Shown here in pieces: positions 48,769 through 55,399 of a stretch of DNA of 64,000 nucleotides. Origin of the DNA: an uncultured Lachnospiraceae bacterium. GTDB lineage: Bacteria > Bacillota > Clostridia > Lachnospirales > Lachnospiraceae. Numbering within the stretch: position 1 is the first letter of the stretch; every line of letters begins with the position of its first letter. A program made the position numbers and the translations under genes. The DNA is taken from positions 62,001-126,000 of the forward strand of contig CANQRU010000001.1 of the NCBI GenBank assembly GCA_947626395.1. Reading direction: 5' to 3'. The notes beneath the pieces are model-generated. The model saw only the letters and a list, made by a program, of their open reading frames with translations, had not been told where the DNA came from and searched no databases.

Positions 48769-48980
48769 GCAAGCCGGATGAACGTGGAAATGAAGAGAGT
48801 CCGCAGAATAGCAGTTTAGTTAGAGAAGTCCTTTGTGTATGATAGGGATTACCATTTAATACGATGGAGTATAAGATGTAATTTATGAAATTTCACTGGT
48901 CTATCGGCTGGTGTCAGATAGTGAAACCAAAAGACAAAAGCAGCGACATTACAACAAACAAAAATCATGGAGGTACGAAA

Positions 48981-49964
48981 ATGGCAAACGACAGACGACC
49001 CGACGACATGACAAGAATCACCACCCCGGAGCTTGCGGAAGCATTTATCAGCAAGCAGGTGAAGGCCCTTCAGGAGCAGATCGGCGATAAGAAGGTTCTT
49101 CTGGCCCTTTCCGGCGGCGTGGACTCCTCGGTAGTGGCGGCGCTCCTGATCCGCGCCGTCGGCCGGCAGCTGGTTTGCGTGCATGTGAACCACGGCCTTC
49201 TGCGCAAGGGCGAGCCGGAGCAGGTGATCGAAGTGTTCCGCAACCAAATGAACGCGAACCTGATCTATGTGGACGCCACTGACCGTTTCTTGGACAAGCT
49301 GGCCGGCATCTCCGAGCCGGAGCAGAAGCGCAAGATCATCGGCGGCGAGTTCATCGAGGTGTTCGCCGAGGAAGCCAGGAAGCTGGACGGGATCGAATTC
49401 CTGGCGCAGGGAACCATCTGGCCGGACATTCTGGAGAGCGAGAAAGGCATCAAGGCCCACCACAACGCCGGCGGTCTGCCGGAGGATATGCAGTTTGAAC
49501 TGGTGGAGCCGGTGAAGATCCTGTTCAAGGACGAGGTCCGCGTGGTCGGAAAGCAGTTGGGCCTGCCGGACAACATGGTCTTCCGTCAGCCGTTCCCCGG
49601 CCCCGGCCTGGGCGTGCGCTGCCCCGGTGCGATCACCCGCGACCGTCTGGAAGCGGTCCGCGAGTCCGACGCGATCCTGCGGGAAGAATTCGCAAAGCAC
49701 GGCCTGGAAGGCAAGGTGTGGCAGTATTTCACCGTCGTGCCGGAGTTCAAATCCACCGGCATCAAGGACGGCAAGCGGGCGTTTGAGTGGGCGGTCATCA
49801 TCCGCGCGGTCAACACGACGGATGCGATGACGGCGACGGTGGAGAACATCCCGTTCGACCTGATGTGCCGCCTGGTGGAGCGGATCACCCACGAGGTGCC
49901 GGGCGTGAACCGGGTACTTTACGACTTTACGCCGAAGCCGACGGGGACGATTGAGTTCGAATAG
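48981..49964 (+). CDS. guaA: GMP synthase, ATP-pyrophosphatase/dimerisation part only
   Basis: 327 residues with P-loop LALSGGVDSSVVAALL, then the GuaA-specific blocks QGTIWPDILES, PFPGPGLGVRCPG and the C-terminal HEVPGVNRVLYDFTPKPTGTIEFE-like end. It converts XMP to GMP with ATP and ammonia. The usual N-terminal glutamine amidotransferase domain (~190 residues) is absent: the start at 48981 (GGAGG 8 bp upstream) opens directly into the ATPase domain. A separate glutaminase subunit must exist, or free ammonia is used. Terminator at 49975. A weak promoter (TATGAT 48838-48843) and a hairpin-forming leader (TTTCA/TGAAA and CTATC/GATAG near 48890-48927) precede it. Confidence 0.93.
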   Translation: MANDRRPDDMTRITTPELAEAFISKQVKALQEQIGDKKVLLALSGGVDSSVVAALLIRAVGRQLVCVHVNHGLLRKGEPEQVIEVFRNQMNANLIYVDATDRFLDKLAGISEPEQKRKIIGGEFIEVFAEEARKLDGIEFLAQGTIWPDILESEKGIKAHHNAGGLPEDMQFELVEPVKILFKDEVRVVGKQLGLPDNMVFRQPFPGPGLGVRCPGAITRDRLEAVRESDAILREEFAKHGLEGKVWQYFTVVPEFKSTGIKDGKRAFEWAVIIRAVNTTDAMTATVENIPFDLMCRLVERITHEVPGVNRVLYDFTPKPTGTIEFE

Positions 49965-49974
49965 TAGAATTTTT

Positions 49975-50012
49975 GGCCGGGAATCCAGTATTTAAGCGGA
50001 TTTCCGGCCTTT
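49975..50012 (+). terminator. Terminator of guaA
   Basis: GGCCGGGAATCC (49975-49986) pairs with GGATTTCCGGCC (49998-50009) with one wobble, followed by a short T-run. Confidence 0.82.
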
Positions 50013-50025
50013 CCGTATGACCCCG

Positions 50026-50045
50026 TGACACTAATATGACACTAA
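50026..50045. repeat. TGACACTAA direct repeat (possible integrase arm sites)
   Basis: TGACACTAA occurs at 50026-50034 and 50037-50045, 11 bp apart, between the guaA terminator and the recombinase side. Short direct repeats of this kind next to a tyrosine recombinase are candidates for arm-type binding sites; this is inference. Confidence 0.4.
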
Positions 50046-50076
50046 GAAATCAAGTCGCTACTCTCATTACCTACCC

Positions 50077-50105
50077 TTGCAATCAGCGCAAAGCTGTGAT
50101 AGAAT
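50077..50105 (+). promoter_or_regulatory. Promoter of the small membrane peptide mRNA
   Basis: TTGCAA (50077-50082) and TAGAAT (50100-50105) with a 17-bp spacer. The predicted start near 50112 is just before the motif GGTGTCACCGA. Confidence 0.7.
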
Positions 50106-50111
50106 ACCTAT

Positions 50112-50215
50112 GGGTGTCACCGAGATGGTGGACGGCTGGCCCTCTTCGGAGGGACTGTGACCCTCCGTTTACATAGAAACCCGCAAGGGAATCGAAGGAA
50201 GGGAGGGCTGAAGCT
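50112..50215 (+). promoter_or_regulatory. Structured leader of the small peptide mRNA
   Basis: CCCTC-TTCG-GAGGG (50140-50153) and the alternative CGGAGGG/CCCTCCG (50147-50153 with 50161-50167) are mutually exclusive. The free CCCTCC can also pair with the ribosome site GGGAGGG (50201-50207). The leader opens with GGTGTCACCGA and GACGGCTGGCCC, a motif shared with the opposing RNA. Confidence 0.55.
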
Positions 50216-50320
50216 ATGTTGACGATTGAAGGCCTTTTGGCAGTGCTCAGCTTCGGACTGGCCTGCTTTAGCGTCGGATACGCCATCGGACGCAAAGATA
50301 ATGAGAAGACGCAGAAATAG
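50216..50320 (+). CDS. 34-residue hydrophobic peptide, type I toxin-like
   Basis: MLTIEGLLAVLSFGLACF begins a single membrane helix (about residues 4-25), followed by a charged tail (GRKDNEKTQK). Size, one membrane helix and charged C-terminus resemble type I toxins of Firmicutes (holin-like, Fst/TxpA class) without clear identity. GGGAGGG lies 8 bp upstream. The gene is flanked by two convergent promoters and ends inside a perfect bidirectional terminator. It sits between guaA and the recombinase gene. Confidence 0.65.
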   Translation: MLTIEGLLAVLSFGLACFSVGYAIGRKDNEKTQK

Positions 50321-50400
50321 CCGCCCCGACCCGGAAAGTTGAGCGGCTATTTCAGTTACTAATTTTCTTGGGCCAGCCGTCTATCGGTGGCACCTTTTCT
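50313..50400 (-). ncRNA. Putative convergent antisense RNA of the small peptide locus
   Basis: A promoter on the minus strand (TTGAAA 50430-50435, 17 bp, TATAGT 50407-50412) would start an RNA near 50400 that runs toward the peptide gene and ends at the shared terminator, about 88 nt. It opens with GGTGCCACCGA and GACGGCTGGCCC, nearly the same motif as the peptide mRNA leader. No ORF is visible in it. Confidence 0.55.
50315..50352. terminator. Bidirectional terminator shared by the two convergent RNAs
   Basis: Perfect 10-bp inverted repeat AAATAGCCGC (50315-50324) and GCGGCTATTT (50343-50352); the arms themselves give T-rich ends in both directions. It overlaps the peptide's stop codon. Confidence 0.82.
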
Positions 50401-50406
50401 ATCTTT

Positions 50407-50435
50407 ACTATATCACATATCCCTGGCTGTTTCAA
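50407..50435 (-). promoter_or_regulatory. Promoter of the antisense RNA
   Basis: TTGAAA (50430-50435) and TATAGT (50407-50412) on the minus strand, 17-bp spacer. The -35 overlaps the recombinase stop codon. Confidence 0.7.
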
Positions 50436-51595
50436 GCCTCATTTTCCACAGAATCAGGTTTGCGTTCCAGCGACTGCATGGCTGCTGTTTCTTCCGGCGT
50501 TTCCCTTCCTGCGCTGGGGCGCCTCAGCTCGTTCAACGCCACAGCGAGCGCCGCATCCTTGTCGGGGTACAGATGGGCATAGGTATCAAGAGTGGTCTTT
50601 ACCGACTCGTGGCCGAGCCGTTCCGATATCTGTACGATGTTGAATCCCATCTCGATCAGCAGGCTTGCGTGGCTATGCCGGAGGTCATGCACCCTGATCG
50701 GATCCAGGCCCGCACGTTCGGCGCCGGCCTTCAGCTCCTTATCAAGGCTTGACTTTGTAAAATAGAAGATCCTGTCCCCTGGCTGGATGCCGTATATCTT
50801 GGATATATATTCGTGGATCTCATCATACAGGAAATCCGGGATGGACAGCGTCCGTATGCTCCGCGGTGTCTTCGGCTCCAGGATCAGCTCCACTCCCTTC
50901 ACTTTTGCAAAGTTTTTGGTTATGGACAGCTTTTTGCTCGCAAGCAGATCGGCCGGCGTGAGGGCCAGGAGCTCCCCTTCGCGGATGCCGGTATAAAATA
51001 GGATGTCGAAAGCGAGCCGTAGCGCTGACTTCCGGATCTGGCCGGAGAAACGCTCATATTCTTCCCTCGTCCAGATCTTCATCTTGTCGGCGTGGCTTCT
51101 TCCCATGCTGCCGGCCACCCGGCAGGGATTGACTGGAAGAGAGTAGTGAAGCACCGCATAGTTTAAGATGGCCGATAACTGATTGTTGACCGTTTTAATA
51201 TACGTCTGTGAATATGGCTTTCCATTCTCATCACGATACGATATGATCTCGTTTTGCCATTTGCGGATCTTTATGGTATCAATATCGCAAGTACGGAGTT
51301 TGGAGAAGTACGGAAGGACCTTTGTGTCGATAATATGCTTCTTGGTCTCCATGGTCGTCGGCTTCAGCCGGTTCTCCATATCTTTCATGTAGTTCTCCAC
51401 CAGGTTTGAGAACAGAATGTCGCAGCCGTTTTTCTGCAGATCGAGATAAATATCCTCATAGTCCTTGGCGGCGCGCTTTGTCTCAAATCCTCTTTTACAT
51501 ATCTGCCGTTTGGTTCCGGTCCAATCTGTTATATAGAATTTTGCTCGCCATCGGATGGTTTTCCCGTCCTTTAAGGTGTATTTGTATGCTGGCAT
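50432..51595 (-). CDS. Tyrosine recombinase/integrase
   Basis: 387 residues. The N-terminal arm-binding domain (KYTLKDGKTIRWRAKFYI), a core-binding SAM-like domain, and the catalytic domain with Arg (YTGIREGELL), HxxR (HDLRHSHASLL), and LGHESVKTTLDTYAH with the nucleophile Tyr are all intact. Acts in integration and excision of an element. It sits near the guaA 3' end, a known insertion target for islands. The start at 51595 is used because the upstream gene's TGA is 1 bp before it, with GAGG further upstream. Confidence 0.92.
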   Translation of the reverse strand: MPAYKYTLKDGKTIRWRAKFYITDWTGTKRQICKRGFETKRAAKDYEDIYLDLQKNGCDILFSNLVENYMKDMENRLKPTTMETKKHIIDTKVLPYFSKLRTCDIDTIKIRKWQNEIISYRDENGKPYSQTYIKTVNNQLSAILNYAVLHYSLPVNPCRVAGSMGRSHADKMKIWTREEYERFSGQIRKSALRLAFDILFYTGIREGELLALTPADLLASKKLSITKNFAKVKGVELILEPKTPRSIRTLSIPDFLYDEIHEYISKIYGIQPGDRIFYFTKSSLDKELKAGAERAGLDPIRVHDLRHSHASLLIEMGFNIVQISERLGHESVKTTLDTYAHLYPDKDAALAVALNELRRPSAGRETPEETAAMQSLERKPDSVENEA

Positions 51596-51596
51596 G

Positions 51597-52247
51597 TCAA
51601 ATATCCTCTGATGAATTGATAATACGAGCAAGTATCTCGTAAATGTATTCCGGCTCCTTAGTTTCTAACGGATACTGCTGTTCTCCAAACTGAAATGCAA
51701 TGCCATTTTGATATGGGGTAACAGCCGATAAAGCCGAGAGCTTCTTATCAAATGCTCCCTTATTCCCTGAAAATACCACTCTTTTATTGGTGACGGAGAG
51801 GATCCCCGGGGTCCTTTCCTGCACATCTCCCCTGATCGGCGCTGCTTTCTGCGCCCCTACCCTTACGGACATCCCTTTTGCAATCCTTATGCTGGTTCCA
51901 CGACTTCCGCCGGCGTAACCAACTACCACATTTTTGGTCTTTACGAAAGTGGCAGGTCCGCAATAATGACAGATCTCGCCGTTGCTGAGCATGAGATTCG
52001 AGGATACGATTACAGGAAGCTCCTCTGAGTCGTCCAGCTCCCTGGGTCTGTTTCCCCAGATTCGCTCACCCTTGATCGCAGCTATCAGATATCGAATCGT
52101 ATCGATGATCCATCCTATGAAGAATAATCCCATTGTGCATAGGTATAGAATCCCCATGCCAGTTTTCTTTTCCCTGAACTTATGAATTCCTGCCCATCCA
52201 AATAGGAAGCAGATCAAAAAATCTGTCCATGCCGCAGTCCATTTCAT
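51597..52247 (-). CDS. TM2-domain membrane protein with a PH/GRAM-like C-terminal domain
   Basis: 216 residues. Two membrane helices near the N-terminus (WTDFLICFLFGWAGIHKF and LCTMGLFFIGWIIDTIRYL) match the TM2 domain. A short CHYCG knuckle follows, then a beta-rich domain with GILSVTNKRVVFSG, typical of bacterial PH/GRAM-like domains. Stop and recombinase start are separated by 1 bp, so the two are translated together. Function unknown; similar proteins are common in mobile elements. Confidence 0.7.
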   Translation of the reverse strand: MKWTAAWTDFLICFLFGWAGIHKFREKKTGMGILYLCTMGLFFIGWIIDTIRYLIAAIKGERIWGNRPRELDDSEELPVIVSSNLMLSNGEICHYCGPATFVKTKNVVVGYAGGSRGTSIRIAKGMSVRVGAQKAAPIRGDVQERTPGILSVTNKRVVFSGNKGAFDKKLSALSAVTPYQNGIAFQFGEQQYPLETKEPEYIYEILARIINSSEDI

Positions 52248-52307
52248 GATTTTCTTCCTCCTGCAATATTTTGCTTTATCTCGTCCCCCGGTACCACGCG
52301 AGGGATA

Positions 52308-52673
52308 TTATTTTGCCTGCTTCAGGGATGCGTCCGCTGCAACGGACTCCTCCTGATAACGCTTCAAATAACCCTTCAGTTCTCCGCGGAACTCAATCTG
52401 GGCTTCCGGCGGGAGCTGGTGGATGAGTGAAAGCCACTCAGCATCCTCTTTCGGGATGTCGAGAGAGGGATTTGCTCTCCCAGTAAGCAAATAGTATGAA
52501 CTCATATTAAGAAATTCGGAAATGGGGATTATGTATTCGGCGGGTATTGACCGCCCTAATTTCAACCAGTTGTTGACAGTAGAGGTTGAAACACCTATAG
52601 AAGCGGCGAGCCCTTTCTGTGTAGTCCCTTTTCCGGTTTTCAATGCTTCAACAATCCGCTCGTTGACAGTCAT
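52308..52673 (-). CDS. XRE-family (CI-like) repressor
   Basis: 121 residues from the preferred start at 52673 (GGAGA upstream). Helix-turn-helix [21 protein letters not shown] (in part); the C-terminal region is helical and Glu-rich. Two 16-bp operator-like palindromes lie directly upstream over its promoter, so it probably represses itself. The longer open frame to 52799 covers the operators and is unlikely. Likely the control gene of the element carrying the recombinase. Confidence 0.82.
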   Translation of the reverse strand: MTVNERIVEALKTGKGTTQKGLAASIGVSTSTVNNWLKLGRSIPAEYIIPISEFLNMSSYYLLTGRANPSLDIPKEDAEWLSLIHQLPPEAQIEFRGELKGYLKRYQEESVAADASLKQAK

Positions 52674-52688
52674 AAAAAATCTCCAAAA

Positions 52689-52757
52689 ATCCCCGAATAG
52701 GTATTGACATATCCCTAAACAGGGATTATTATAAAAGCACATAACAACAAGTTGCAA
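52689..52757 (-). promoter_or_regulatory. Repressor promoter with two operators
   Basis: The palindrome ATCCCT-N4-AGGGAT lies at 52711-52726, with a degenerate copy at 52689-52704; the centres are 22 bp apart. On the minus strand, TATAAT (52728-52733) and TTGCAA (52752-52757, 18-bp spacer) form the promoter; the operators lie at and after the start site. Confidence 0.68.
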
Positions 52758-52918
52758 TAACCCAGGCCAGCCGGCGGCAACCGGAAAAGGCGGGAACACA
52801 AAACAGGCGTCGGAGGATGCATAGCTGCGAACCCATACACCCGCCCCGTCGTTTTGCCAGAATATAACTCTTCATTATTATTCTAACACATTATTGCAAC
52901 TTTTCAAAGTAAAAAAAG

Positions 52919-53131
52919 GTTCCCTTTGAAGACCGCTTAGGCATGCTGGTCGATGTTGAATATACCAGCCGGAAAAACAACCGCCTCAAACGGCTGATCC
53001 GGCGGGCGGAGTTTGAGCAGCCCGGGGCCAGTATTGCGGCTATAGATTACCACTCAGGGAGGAAGCTTAACAGGGAACTGATCAGCCGCCTCGCGTCCTG
53101 TGAGTACATCGCGGAAAACCGAAACATTTTC
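52919..53131 (+). pseudogene. Internal fragment of an IS21-family istB ATPase gene
   Basis: The frame VPFEDRLGMLVDVEY through DYHSGRKLNRELISRLASCEYI to ENRNIF matches the N-terminal third of IstB-type helper ATPases. Homology begins abruptly at 52919 and ends at 53131, just before where the Walker A motif would follow. Both ends are missing, with no inverted repeats, so it is a remnant. It marks the left border of the AT-rich restriction-modification segment. Confidence 0.72.
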
Positions 53132-53178
53132 ACGGTTTTATTAATTCAAAATGTTATTTTTTATACATGACAAAATTA

Positions 53179-53225
53179 TTGACAAACTCATACATAAGTT
53201 ATATGATATATACAAGCCATATAAC
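53179..53225 (+). promoter_or_regulatory. Promoter and inverted repeat of the type I RM operon
   Basis: A perfect TTGACA (53179-53184) and TATGAT (53202-53207) with a 17-bp spacer. An 8-bp inverted repeat GTTATATG (53198-53205) / CATATAAC (53218-53225) covers the -10 and start region, an operator-like layout. Confidence 0.7.
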
Positions 53226-53273
53226 GTACCTGGCAAATCAACACCATTTATATGTAACAGACGAGGTGTCCAG

Positions 53274-53864
53274 ATGAAATTAGGAGATTCGGCTTCAGTA
53301 CGAAGCGGATTGGTGCTTTCGCGCAAGCTGGCGAGAGAACCGTCCGGAATACGCTATCCATTGCTAAATTTGCGTTCTATTCAGCCCGATGGGCATATTG
53401 ACCTGGAACAGCTGGATTTTTACGATGCGGCCGAACGTCTTTCGCCGGAGTATCTGGCCCAGATTGGAGATGTTATTGTCCGGCTGAGTTCGCCGTATAC
53501 GGCGGTTCTGATTGACAGCGATACCGCGGGGGCTGTTGTATCTTCGAATTTTGTTATTATAAGATGCGATAGCAGAGAGATTCTGCCGGAATATCTTTTC
53601 TGGCTGCTTAACAGGCCTGAAGTGAAGAAAGAGATTTATGAGAATACCGGCAGCAATATGCTCGGGGCGATCAAAGCAAAGTATTTTACTGAATTTGAGA
53701 TGATTCCGCTGTCGATTGCCGATCAAAGACAGATTGCCGGCATGAATCTTCTGGCGAAGAGAGAAGCGGCATTGCTCCGGCAGCTGGCAGATAAGAAGGA
53801 ACGTTATTATGAACTTCTGGTTCAGGATATATACAGAAAGAAAAGTGAGGTAAATAGAGGATGA
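53274..53864 (+). CDS. Half-size HsdS-like specificity protein
   Basis: 196 residues: one target-recognition-like domain (LGDSASVRSGLVLSRK, QIGDVIVRLSSPYTAVLI, SSNFVIIRC, LFWLLNRPEVKKEIYE) and one C-terminal coiled coil (REAALLRQLADKKERYYELLVQ). A complete HsdS has two of each. The start at 53274 has GAGGTG upstream. Its stop overlaps the hsdM start (ATGA). It could work as a dimer, be a regulator, or be a spare recognition half. Confidence 0.72.
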   Translation: MKLGDSASVRSGLVLSRKLAREPSGIRYPLLNLRSIQPDGHIDLEQLDFYDAAERLSPEYLAQIGDVIVRLSSPYTAVLIDSDTAGAVVSSNFVIIRCDSREILPEYLFWLLNRPEVKKEIYENTGSNMLGAIKAKYFTEFEMIPLSIADQRQIAGMNLLAKREAALLRQLADKKERYYELLVQDIYRKKSEVNRG

Positions 53865-55399
53865 CTACGAGAAATGATATTCAGCGTACACTGTGGAAAG
53901 CCTGTGACAGTTTCCGGGGGAAGATTGACAGTTCCCGATACAAAGACTACATCTTGTCGATGTTATTTGTGAAATACTTAAGCGATATTACGAAGGAAAA
54001 GCGGGCTCATTACTGGGAGCAGTACGAGGGCGATGCGCAGCGTGTGGAGCGAGCCATGGGCAGAGAACGCTTCGCGATTGACGAGACATCAAGTTTTGAT
54101 TTCCTGTATGAGCAGAGGAATGATACCGAGATCGGCCAGAAAATCAATGTGGCATTATCTCATATTGAGGAGCACAACAGCGGGAAACTCCGTAATGTTT
54201 TCCGGGCGATCGATTTTAATTCACAGGTGGATTTTGGAGATGTGAAAGAGAAGAATACGACGCTGCGCAATCTGCTTGAGGATTTTCATGATCTGGATCT
54301 GCGGCCCAGCCAGCTGGATTCGGCTGATATTATTGGGGACGCTTACGAGTATATGATCGCCAATTTTGCTTCGGATGCCGGCAAGAAAGGCGGAGAGTTC
54401 TTCACTCCGAGTCCGGTATCTGAATTGATCGCGGCTTTGGTGAAACCCAGAGAGAATGATCGTATTTATGATCCTACATGCGGGAGCGGCGGCCTGCTCC
54501 TGAAGGCGTATAAGAAAGTGCCGGGCGGGAAGGCGGCTGTCTACGGACAGGAGCTGAACGCTCAGACCTGGGCGCTTTGTACCATGAATATGTTTCTTCA
54601 CGGCGTAGACGACGCGCGTATATGGCAGGGGGATACCCTTTCCAACCCGCAGAATATCGAGGATGATAAGCTGATGAAATTCCAGGTGGTGGTTGCGAAT
54701 CCGCCGTTTAGCCTTGATAAATGGGACAGCGGTTTTCTATCGGAGGCGAATCTCGATAACAAGGAGAAAAAGCAGGAAAAGATGGAAGCGACCCTGGACA
54801 GATGGAAGCGATTTGAATGGGGTGTTCCGCCGTCTTCCAAAGGAGACTATGCGTTTGTGCTGCATATGCTCCATAGCCTGGACGCCGAGAATGGCCGGAT
54901 GGCGGTAGTACTCCCGCACGGCGTATTGTTCCGCGGTGCCAGTGAAGGGAAGATACGAAGAAAATTGATCGAGATGAATCTTCTGGATGCCGTGATCGGC
55001 TTGCCCTCGAATCTCTTCTATGGTACGGGGATTCCGGCCTGCATTCTTTTATTCAAGAAGAACCGAACAAGGGATGACGTCCTTTTTATCGATGCGTCAG
55101 GAGAAGGTAATTATGAAAAAGGCAAGAATCAGAATATTCTGCGCGCCAGCGATATTATGCGGATTGTCAGTACTTATGAAGAGAGAGAGGCAAAGGTTGA
55201 CAAATACAGTTACCGTGCTTCCCGTGAGGAGATCAGCAGGAATGACTATAATCTGAACATTCCGCGGTATGTGGACACGTTCGAGGAAGAAGAACCGGTG
55301 GATATCGACGAAGTGAGGCAGAATATCGCTGCTATAGAGGCGGAACTGGCGCAGGTGCAGGCACGGATAGATAAATATCTGGAGGAACTGGGCTTATGA
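53861..55399 (+). CDS. hsdM: Type I restriction-modification methyltransferase subunit
   Basis: 512 residues. The N-terminal HsdM helical domain (CDSFRGKIDSSRYKDYIL), SAM-binding motif I D204-PTCGSGG, and adenine-methylation motif IV N280-P-P-F mark an N6-adenine methyltransferase. It forms the modification complex with HsdS and, with HsdR, the restriction complex. ATGA overlaps on both sides (53861 and 55396-55399) give a tightly coupled operon. Confidence 0.95.
   Translation: MTTRNDIQRTLWKACDSFRGKIDSSRYKDYILSMLFVKYLSDITKEKRAHYWEQYEGDAQRVERAMGRERFAIDETSSFDFLYEQRNDTEIGQKINVALSHIEEHNSGKLRNVFRAIDFNSQVDFGDVKEKNTTLRNLLEDFHDLDLRPSQLDSADIIGDAYEYMIANFASDAGKKGGEFFTPSPVSELIAALVKPRENDRIYDPTCGSGGLLLKAYKKVPGGKAAVYGQELNAQTWALCTMNMFLHGVDDARIWQGDTLSNPQNIEDDKLMKFQVVVANPPFSLDKWDSGFLSEANLDNKEKKQEKMEATLDRWKRFEWGVPPSSKGDYAFVLHMLHSLDAENGRMAVVLPHGVLFRGASEGKIRRKLIEMNLLDAVIGLPSNLFYGTGIPACILLFKKNRTRDDVLFIDASGEGNYEKGKNQNILRASDIMRIVSTYEEREAKVDKYSYRASREEISRNDYNLNIPRYVDTFEEEEPVDIDEVRQNIAAIEAELAQVQARIDKYLEELGL

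Follow-up and report, generated by a model that had tools for sequence, protein, structure and literature searches.

The locus described here is, in our judgement, a likely type I toxin-antitoxin module with a par-like layout, in which matched self-complementary 5' hairpins would stand in for the direct repeats of par. It lies in a window of 64,000 nucleotides from an uncultured Lachnospiraceae bacterium (the window being the whole stretch of DNA that was analysed), and its predicted features are collected in Table 1. A preliminary description had put the locus forward as a new type I class; the type I-like character has held up, and in place of a class standing alone we find one member of a widespread superfamily. 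Comparison of the sequences suggests that probable RNA-controlled toxin switches of this kind form a large family that has drawn little notice.

Table 1. Predicted features of the locus, in coordinates of the window
Feature	Position	Strand	Remarks
Promoter of toxin mRNA	50077..50105	+	-35 TTGCAA, 17-bp spacer, TG, -10 TAGAAT; kept in relatives; predicted
Sense arm1 GGTGTCACC, opening element of toxin mRNA	50113..50121	+	matched to antisense arm1 across loci
GGTGG, counterpart of GGTAG between the arms in relatives' toxin mRNAs	50127..50131	+	
Sense arm2 GGCTGGCCC	50134..50142	+	complementary to arm1; in the window predicted to pair with the Shine-Dalgarno region
Leader hairpin P2, GGAGGG / CCCTCC, loop ACTGTGA	50148..50166	+	
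Conserved TACATAGAAA and leader hairpin P3 (CCC GCAA GGG)	50170..50193	+	compensatory pairs
Shine-Dalgarno GGGAGGG	50201..50207	+	predicted masked in full-length mRNA
Predicted toxin, 34-residue one-helix membrane peptide	50216..50320	+	stop included
Bidirectional terminator, common 3' end of both RNAs	50314..50353	.	11-bp perfect stem
Predicted antisense (antitoxin) RNA	50308..50401	-	5' hairpin, A/U-rich linker, terminator
Antisense arm1 GGTGCCACC	50386..50394	-	
Antisense arm2 GGCTGGCCC	50370..50378	-	pairs with antisense arm1
Promoter of antisense RNA	50407..50435	-	-35 TTGAAA, 17-bp spacer, TG, -10 TATAGT; kept in relatives; predicted

In the mechanism that we favour, the plus-strand RNA would be transcribed as the mRNA of a toxic one-helix membrane peptide, and the full-length mRNA would probably be shut because its leader is predicted to mask the Shine-Dalgarno (SD) site. 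The minus-strand RNA, about 90 nt long, would be the antitoxin and would begin with a hairpin of arm1 and arm2, continue as a single-stranded linker and end in the terminator that it shares with the mRNA. The fully complementary terminator hairpins would probably make the first contact. Because the 5' elements of the two RNAs copy one self-complementary sequence, arm1 in either RNA is complementary to arm2 in the other RNA, and a second contact at the 5' ends, through whichever of these arm-to-arm pairings is used, would fix the partnership of antitoxin and mRNA and commit the pair to silencing and decay.

The facing promoters lie where the preliminary description had placed them and score 9/12 on the plus strand and 10/12 on the minus strand. 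Taken alone they are not decisive, since 2.6 kb of sequence held four promoter-like sites against 1.6 expected by shuffling. The shared bidirectional terminator that had been described as 10 bp long is present and perfect, with arms (50314-50324 and 50343-50353) of 11 bp. Also borne out were an open reading frame (ORF) for a 34-residue peptide with a single hydrophobic stretch (mean Kyte-Doolittle 1.97 over 19 residues) and two predicted RNAs opening with nearly the same motif in inverted orientation. This element, arm1 GGTGNCACC followed by arm2 GGCTGGCCC, forms inverted repeats in the DNA about 230-260 nt apart: GACGGCTGGCCC is a perfect 12-nt repeat (50131-50142 / 50370-50381) and GGTGTCACCGA an 11-nt repeat of 91% (50113-50123 / 50384-50394). 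By hand calculation, about 0.004 perfect 12-nt inverted pairs are expected by chance in a stretch of about 360 bp.

Conservation, as judged from the sequences of relatives, places this layout beyond chance. We parsed 126 loci with consensus-built patterns, which left out degenerate copies; 103 were distinct and 102 were used, 101 of them for promoters and spacing. (A second set, used for arm identity, comprised 124 parsed loci, or 81 after removal of those more than 93% alike.) The two arm1 copies lie at a median distance of 284 nt (5-95%, 261-329), and a promoter score of at least 9/12 was reached at 75 sense and 86 antisense sites, with both reaching it in 66 loci. Spacers of 17 bp were found in 56 of these 75 sense and 70 of these 86 antisense promoters, and mean scores were 9.09 and 9.38, where shuffled upstream sequence gave 7.21 and 7.27. 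In nine loci examined, the distance from the end of the -10 element to arm1 is 12-14 nt on the antisense side and 6-9 nt on the sense side, which would place the start of each RNA at the element or slightly ahead of it. Promoters, spacing and terminator are thus kept in relatives, as is the inverted motif, on whose presence in homologous loci the preliminary description had staked its proposal of a par-like, probable type I layout. As in type I systems, the predicted antisense RNA is by its sequence complementary to the toxin mRNA and has its own conserved minus-strand promoter and a terminator.

The comparison of loci showed that the arms of the two RNAs match within a locus. Between sense and antisense RNAs, identity in the own locus was 0.909 for arm1 and 0.897 for arm2, against 0.806 and 0.840 after swapping (0/2000 for each; 78 of 81 loci, after removal of those with gaps in an arm, the window not being among the 78). 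Since relatedness could by itself cause arm identity within loci, we arranged the 102 loci into 51 sister pairs, grouped by the rest of the sequence. Over the nine positions of arm1, changes in both RNAs numbered 33 against 10.1 expected by permutation (0/10000), or 12.0 when blocked by divergence (0/10000), and 24 of the 33 were the same change in both. Native identity was better than sister-swapped identity in 15 pairs and worse in two for arm1 (p 0.0003), and better in 12 and worse in one for arm2 (p 0.0015). In the 8 nt that precede arm1, sequence identity was 38%, and the sister pairs gave no sense/antisense matching in the 10 nt that follow arm2. On the upstream side the boundary is not strict, since the 14 nt before arm1 showed a slight excess (20 better, nine worse, p 0.029).

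The matching extends to divergent loci, for which 225 rows of a covariance model of the antisense RNA gave 177 non-overlapping matches, of which 121 were used. The leader-match test took in 79 of the 121; in 24 of these 79, an unusual antisense arm1 had a match of at least 8/9 in its own leader region, against 2.7% in swaps. Thus GGCAGACC occurs in both RNAs of one locus (L295) and GGAGTGCCGAT in both RNAs of another (L294), and L267, from another family of the phylum, has ACAGGCTG and ACGGTTAGCC in both. Three loci similar to L267 (L269, L272 and L358) gave no arm match between their RNAs. Among co-resident modules (74 modules in 26 genomes) the leader on average fits its own antitoxin better than that of the neighbour (0.758 vs 0.721, 0/10000). 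This test says nothing on several arrays whose copies have an arm1 in common, and two genomes (G538 and G846) go the opposite way.

The antisense hairpin and terminator are shown by covariation. The 5' hairpin comprises nine arm1:arm2 pairs and is followed by the A/U-rich linker and the terminator. Over 80 loci, the 20 pairs of this structure were formed in 94.0% of cells against 90.9% after shuffling, with 71 double-change cells against 24.9 (0/500). Sliding the structure by one to three columns lowered pairing to at most 51.9%, a comparison in which the native version is favoured by its origin in the consensus. Among 84 distinct model matches (50 further loci), 169 double-change cells were found against 44.0 expected, affecting all 20 pairs, in an alignment that was fitted to the model and contains some weak opposite-strand matches.

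The toxin mRNA is more intricate. The predicted transcript (50112-50356) folds better than its shuffles (z -2.75); P2 is paired in 83.2% of cells against 80.8% shuffled (0/500), and P3 shows compensatory pairs (C-G 27 / U-A 26 at one position, C-G 29 / U-A 18 / A-U 4 at another). Between the arms, 93 of 102 loci carry GGTAG, which can pair with arm1 in 98.5% of cells (3/500 shuffles). The leader consensus fold picked an arm1:arm2 hairpin instead of this GGTAG:arm1 pairing; arm1:arm2 can pair in 94.5% of cells, a value equalled by 63/500 shuffles, and its native energy is worse than the swapped one (4983 of 5000 permutations at least as good). Several leaders carry an insertion, mostly in the P2 loop, of a repeated hairpin some 50 nt long that ends like GACCGAAGTGAAACGGAGA (L025, L033, L050, L051, L108, L118, L148 and L170, with related inserts in L067 and L081).

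The predicted probability that the SD is unpaired was 0.01 in the window and averaged 0.14 over the 22 loci folded out of 82, without a shuffled control for this figure. Arm2 does the masking in only five of the 22, the window included (mean share 0.20, window 0.64), so elsewhere other parts of the leader would have to mask the SD. Pairing of sense arm2 with the SD region was stronger in native than in swapped combinations (-16.7 vs -15.8 kcal/mol, 0/5000). It was not significant in the sister control (10 pairs better, 12 worse, p 0.11), nor was that of the SD with antisense arm2 (native worse in 17 pairs, better in eight). On the alignment, whose SD columns are poorly aligned, arm2 and SD paired in 75.8% of cells, with 98/500 shuffles as high. 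In the window, antisense arm1 pairing with sense arm2 could free the SD and not block it.

Because arm2 masks the SD in so few of the folded loci, our confidence in the type I explanation is slightly lowered and that in another reading slightly raised, namely that the shared element is a site for one factor serving both genes, such as an RNA-binding protein, a nuclease or a DNA-binding regulator acting just downstream of both starts, and not an element for pairing. Several results are consistent with such a factor: the identity contrasts are stronger than any pairing contrast, the middle of the antisense element is GATAGA in 96 of 102 loci, and outside the arms identity falls to 38% in the 8 nt upstream, with no matching seen downstream. 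A common trans-acting factor would not easily allow the arms to drift between loci as they do, even between modules of one genome, and the arms covary as an RNA hairpin; we consider this reading rather unlikely.

A type I module of the kind that we favour does not depend on a particular palindrome. The shared element is quasi-palindromic because arm1 pairs with arm2, and its inverted copies are for that reason complementary arm to arm, so that arm1 of either RNA could pair with arm2 of its partner. Since the element is itself a hairpin, a par-like 5' contact needs no further palindrome, and by analogy the layout could do the job of par's direct repeats. No specific RNA-RNA contact is proven by our comparisons, in which the sister-swap tests of single contacts are weak. 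Sister-swap energies gave p values of 0.011 for antisense arm1 with sense arm2, 0.013 for arm1 with arm1 and 0.016 for the antisense hairpin, against 0.12 for sense arm1 with antisense arm2 and 0.29 for the sense hairpin. None of the corresponding pair counts reached 0.05 (p 0.054-0.50, the lowest being that of sense arm1 with antisense arm2). When the two full RNAs were folded as a dimer, the terminators alone paired, in a program that cannot model pseudoknots or joint 5' and 3' contacts.

The preliminary description had proposed a more specific contact, in which both 5' ends pair with each other through the GGTG-N-CACC of arm1. Its starting point was sound, in that the arm1 copies of the window are perfect four-pair palindromes around a central base, and arm1 x arm1 pairing with G-U allowed was slightly higher in native than in swapped loci (0.899 vs 0.889, 6/2000, 78 loci), in line with the sister-swap energy above. 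The generality did not stand: of 102 loci, perfect palindromes of this type are found in sense arm1 of 11, antisense arm1 of nine and both in only six. The commonest form of arm1, GGTGCTACC (42 sense, 29 antisense), is palindromic only if G-U pairs are allowed, and sister-swap pairs gave p 0.16. Pairing through the palindrome would also leave unexplained the matching of arm2 and that of position 4, since U6 accepts both G and A there, and we regard this contact as improbable.

The window peptide is short (<60 residues) and hydrophobic, with a membrane helix predicted from hydropathy, as expected of type I toxins. Searches of Pfam and NCBIfam with it gave no match at E<=1, and Hol_Tox (PF16935) in particular was not matched at that threshold, its gathering score not being reached. 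Homologues forming one coherent set were found in 50 of 250 sampled genomes of the same family, its own included (E<=0.01). In named genomes, a pattern for the antisense 5' end matched at least 116 stretches, mostly titled Lachnospiraceae or its genera among the matches listed; these loci were picked by the antisense motif. The same pattern matched 14 stretches in viral contigs, and a search of plasmid and phage collections gave no plasmid match and one weak phage place. One set of loci contained 141 distinct antisense sites, 92 of which have a window-type peptide upstream (E<1e-3). Upstream of the remaining 49, a sense-like motif was found at 23 and a short ORF with a preceding SD, in most though not all cases hydrophobic, at 22. 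Twelve of the 49 show neither in the 420 nt of upstream sequence available; these antisense RNAs (L084, L089, L125, L128, L130, L133, L135, L136, L137, L154, L182 and L197) are candidate orphan antitoxins or remnants.

That different peptides sit on one RNA scaffold was shown by the distant loci. The covariance model, R1, scores the antisense RNA of the window at 86.5 bits (the window being among the sequences from which it was built) and at E<=0.001 finds the antisense RNA in 107 of 391 genomes of the class and 36 of 398 in a phylum-wide sample, the own genome included in each. Searching the 121 usable distant loci for SD-preceded ORFs of 17-50 codons gave one just upstream of the terminator in 79. 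The peptides range from 20 to 40 residues; 76 of the 79 have a 15-residue stretch at Kyte-Doolittle >=1.8 and 68 end in lysine. Of 10 representative scaffold peptides, two exceed the Hol_Tox cut-off of 23.3 (37.1 and 27.6 bits), and a further peptide from outside these 10 narrowly misses it with 23.1 bits. Predicted peptides of 20-23 residues, such as MGEYILYLTIILLLVLIIRK, were seen on the scaffold in L248, L303, L306, L317, L320 and L328. Antisense RNAs can also stand in tandem, with five in 1.6 kb in L301 and a distance of about 335 nt in L339 and L357. Clusters of two to seven antisense RNAs or peptide copies, which may include incomplete modules, were noted in L301, L253, L339, L357, L285, L038 and L039. 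In its own genome, the window locus is accompanied by five further weak model matches (E 0.001-0.08), in which a rough finder recognised no element.

Since the toxicity of the peptide is a prediction and the scaffold is not tied to one peptide, one may ask whether the peptide is instead a small membrane regulator, with the minus-strand RNA as a tuning antisense RNA; the 12 antisense sites with neither sense motif nor ORF would suit this. A hydrophobic core with a charged tail, a convergent antisense RNA, an SD that is predicted to be masked, arrays of several copies and the occurrence of Hol_Tox peptides on this scaffold together fit type I toxins best, and we doubt that a regulator is the answer. 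Finally, recombination of the inverted copies with each other, by gene conversion or by inversion, could keep the arms alike with no regulatory role, the copies being inverted repeats about 230-260 nt apart. We hold this to be very improbable, because the central portions remain different (GGTAG in 93 sense elements and one antisense element, GATAGA in no sense element of the 102 loci) while both flanking arms match, and because the arms covary as pairs.

If the locus is a type I module, the matching of the arms may have a meaning of its own, which we put forward tentatively as a possible identity code. One RNA scaffold would be used over the Bacillota with many unrelated one-helix toxins, and each antitoxin and its mRNA would start with the same quasi-palindromic, co-drifting hairpin, which would set who silences whom and let several modules share a genome; recognition would then come from sameness of the hairpins and not from antisense overlap alone. 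The matched 5' hairpins thus offer a testable answer to how similar co-resident modules might stay apart. On a practical matter, the discovery of type I modules usually proceeds toxin by toxin, since the peptides are too short to serve as search queries. In the present family it is the RNA that stays constant, and a covariance model built on the antitoxin can therefore pick up candidate modules whatever the peptide, down to 20 residues; type I studies could thereby be extended to Lachnospiraceae and related bacteria.

In the window, the locus sits between an ORF at 48885-49964, which from its sequence we take to be guaA, and a tyrosine integrase (50432-51631, minus strand, PF00589). The region beyond the locus (50432-55399) has this integrase, a TM2 protein and an HTH protein, all on the minus strand, and then what appear by eye to be type I restriction-modification genes. 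A search for an att repeat of the integrase element gave none up to the contig end, apart from a 12-nt repeat. A piece related to the integrase of the window was found in only nine fetched loci, and by this test a tie of the module to mobile elements is not general. In a locus of the same genus (L034, G114:C83), a truncated peptide region lies close to sequence like that found downstream of guaA (GGGAATCCAGTATTTAAGCGG) and could be a relic at the same position.

Among known systems, par (Fst/RNA I-RNA II) of the Enterococcus plasmid pAD1 is a convergent-RNA type I module with a shared terminator, a kind that is already known. In the excerpted account of PMC7472228, par has convergent promoters, a shared bidirectional terminator and a 33-residue toxin; its SD is masked by an intramolecular stem-loop, through its direct repeats DRa and DRb the RNAs are complementary across the SD and the start codon, and a second contact region lies beside the terminator. 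The window shares the convergent promoters and the bidirectional terminator, and differs in that its 5' elements are inverted copies of one hairpin and not direct repeats like DRa/DRb. None of five direct-repeat families in 49950-50450 joins the antisense RNA with the leader. Membership in Fst/Ldr, with its PXXXG motif, was rejected, the window peptide having no proline and none of the database matches sought above. Hol_Tox peptides stand on the same RNA scaffold in relatives, and the MLTIEGL-type peptide of the window differs from them by ending in KTQK and not in a lysine run.

In bsrG/SR4 and bsrE/SR5 of Bacillus subtilis, as in txpA/RatA, the two RNAs overlap at the 3' end. According to the portion of PMC6562991 consulted, the antitoxins of the first two contact the toxin mRNA via stem-loops, the terminator loop included, which resembles our model; compared by description only, they differ in using complementary stem-loops and not a shared 5' hairpin. 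CD2517.1-RCd8 and related modules of Clostridioides difficile, several of them in prophages, likewise consist of convergent small membrane toxins with antisense RNAs, and differ by toxins of 47-53 residues and a long complementary region, with no shared 5' element described in the excerpts of PMC6563280 and PMC7699646. SprF1 of Staphylococcus aureus, as outlined in the abridged text of PMC8158120, exerts its antitoxin function through the 3' end, whereas a purine-rich 5' end binds ribosomes. SprG1/SprF1 is thus a precedent for a separate job of the antitoxin 5' domain, and differs, compared by description only, in that the conserved element here is a hairpin and not a purine-rich tract. One scaffold peptide weakly matches NCBIfam PepG1 (16.8 bits, cut-off 70).

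Against Rfam, the window matched with one tRNA alone; a lax search of 49950-50500 gave at best 14.5 bits (cut-off 96.5), and five relatives at best 24.2 (cut-off 90). In the open literature searched, for the most part titles and opening lines of abstracts and with T1TAdb outside its scope, the matches listed described neither a shared inverted 5' element nor this peptide family, and those on type I systems made no mention of Lachnospiraceae. Set beside par and the other systems, what was found neither in Rfam nor in that literature, and is to this extent apparently new, is the matched hairpin element, an RNA scaffold common to several peptide types and a class-wide spread.
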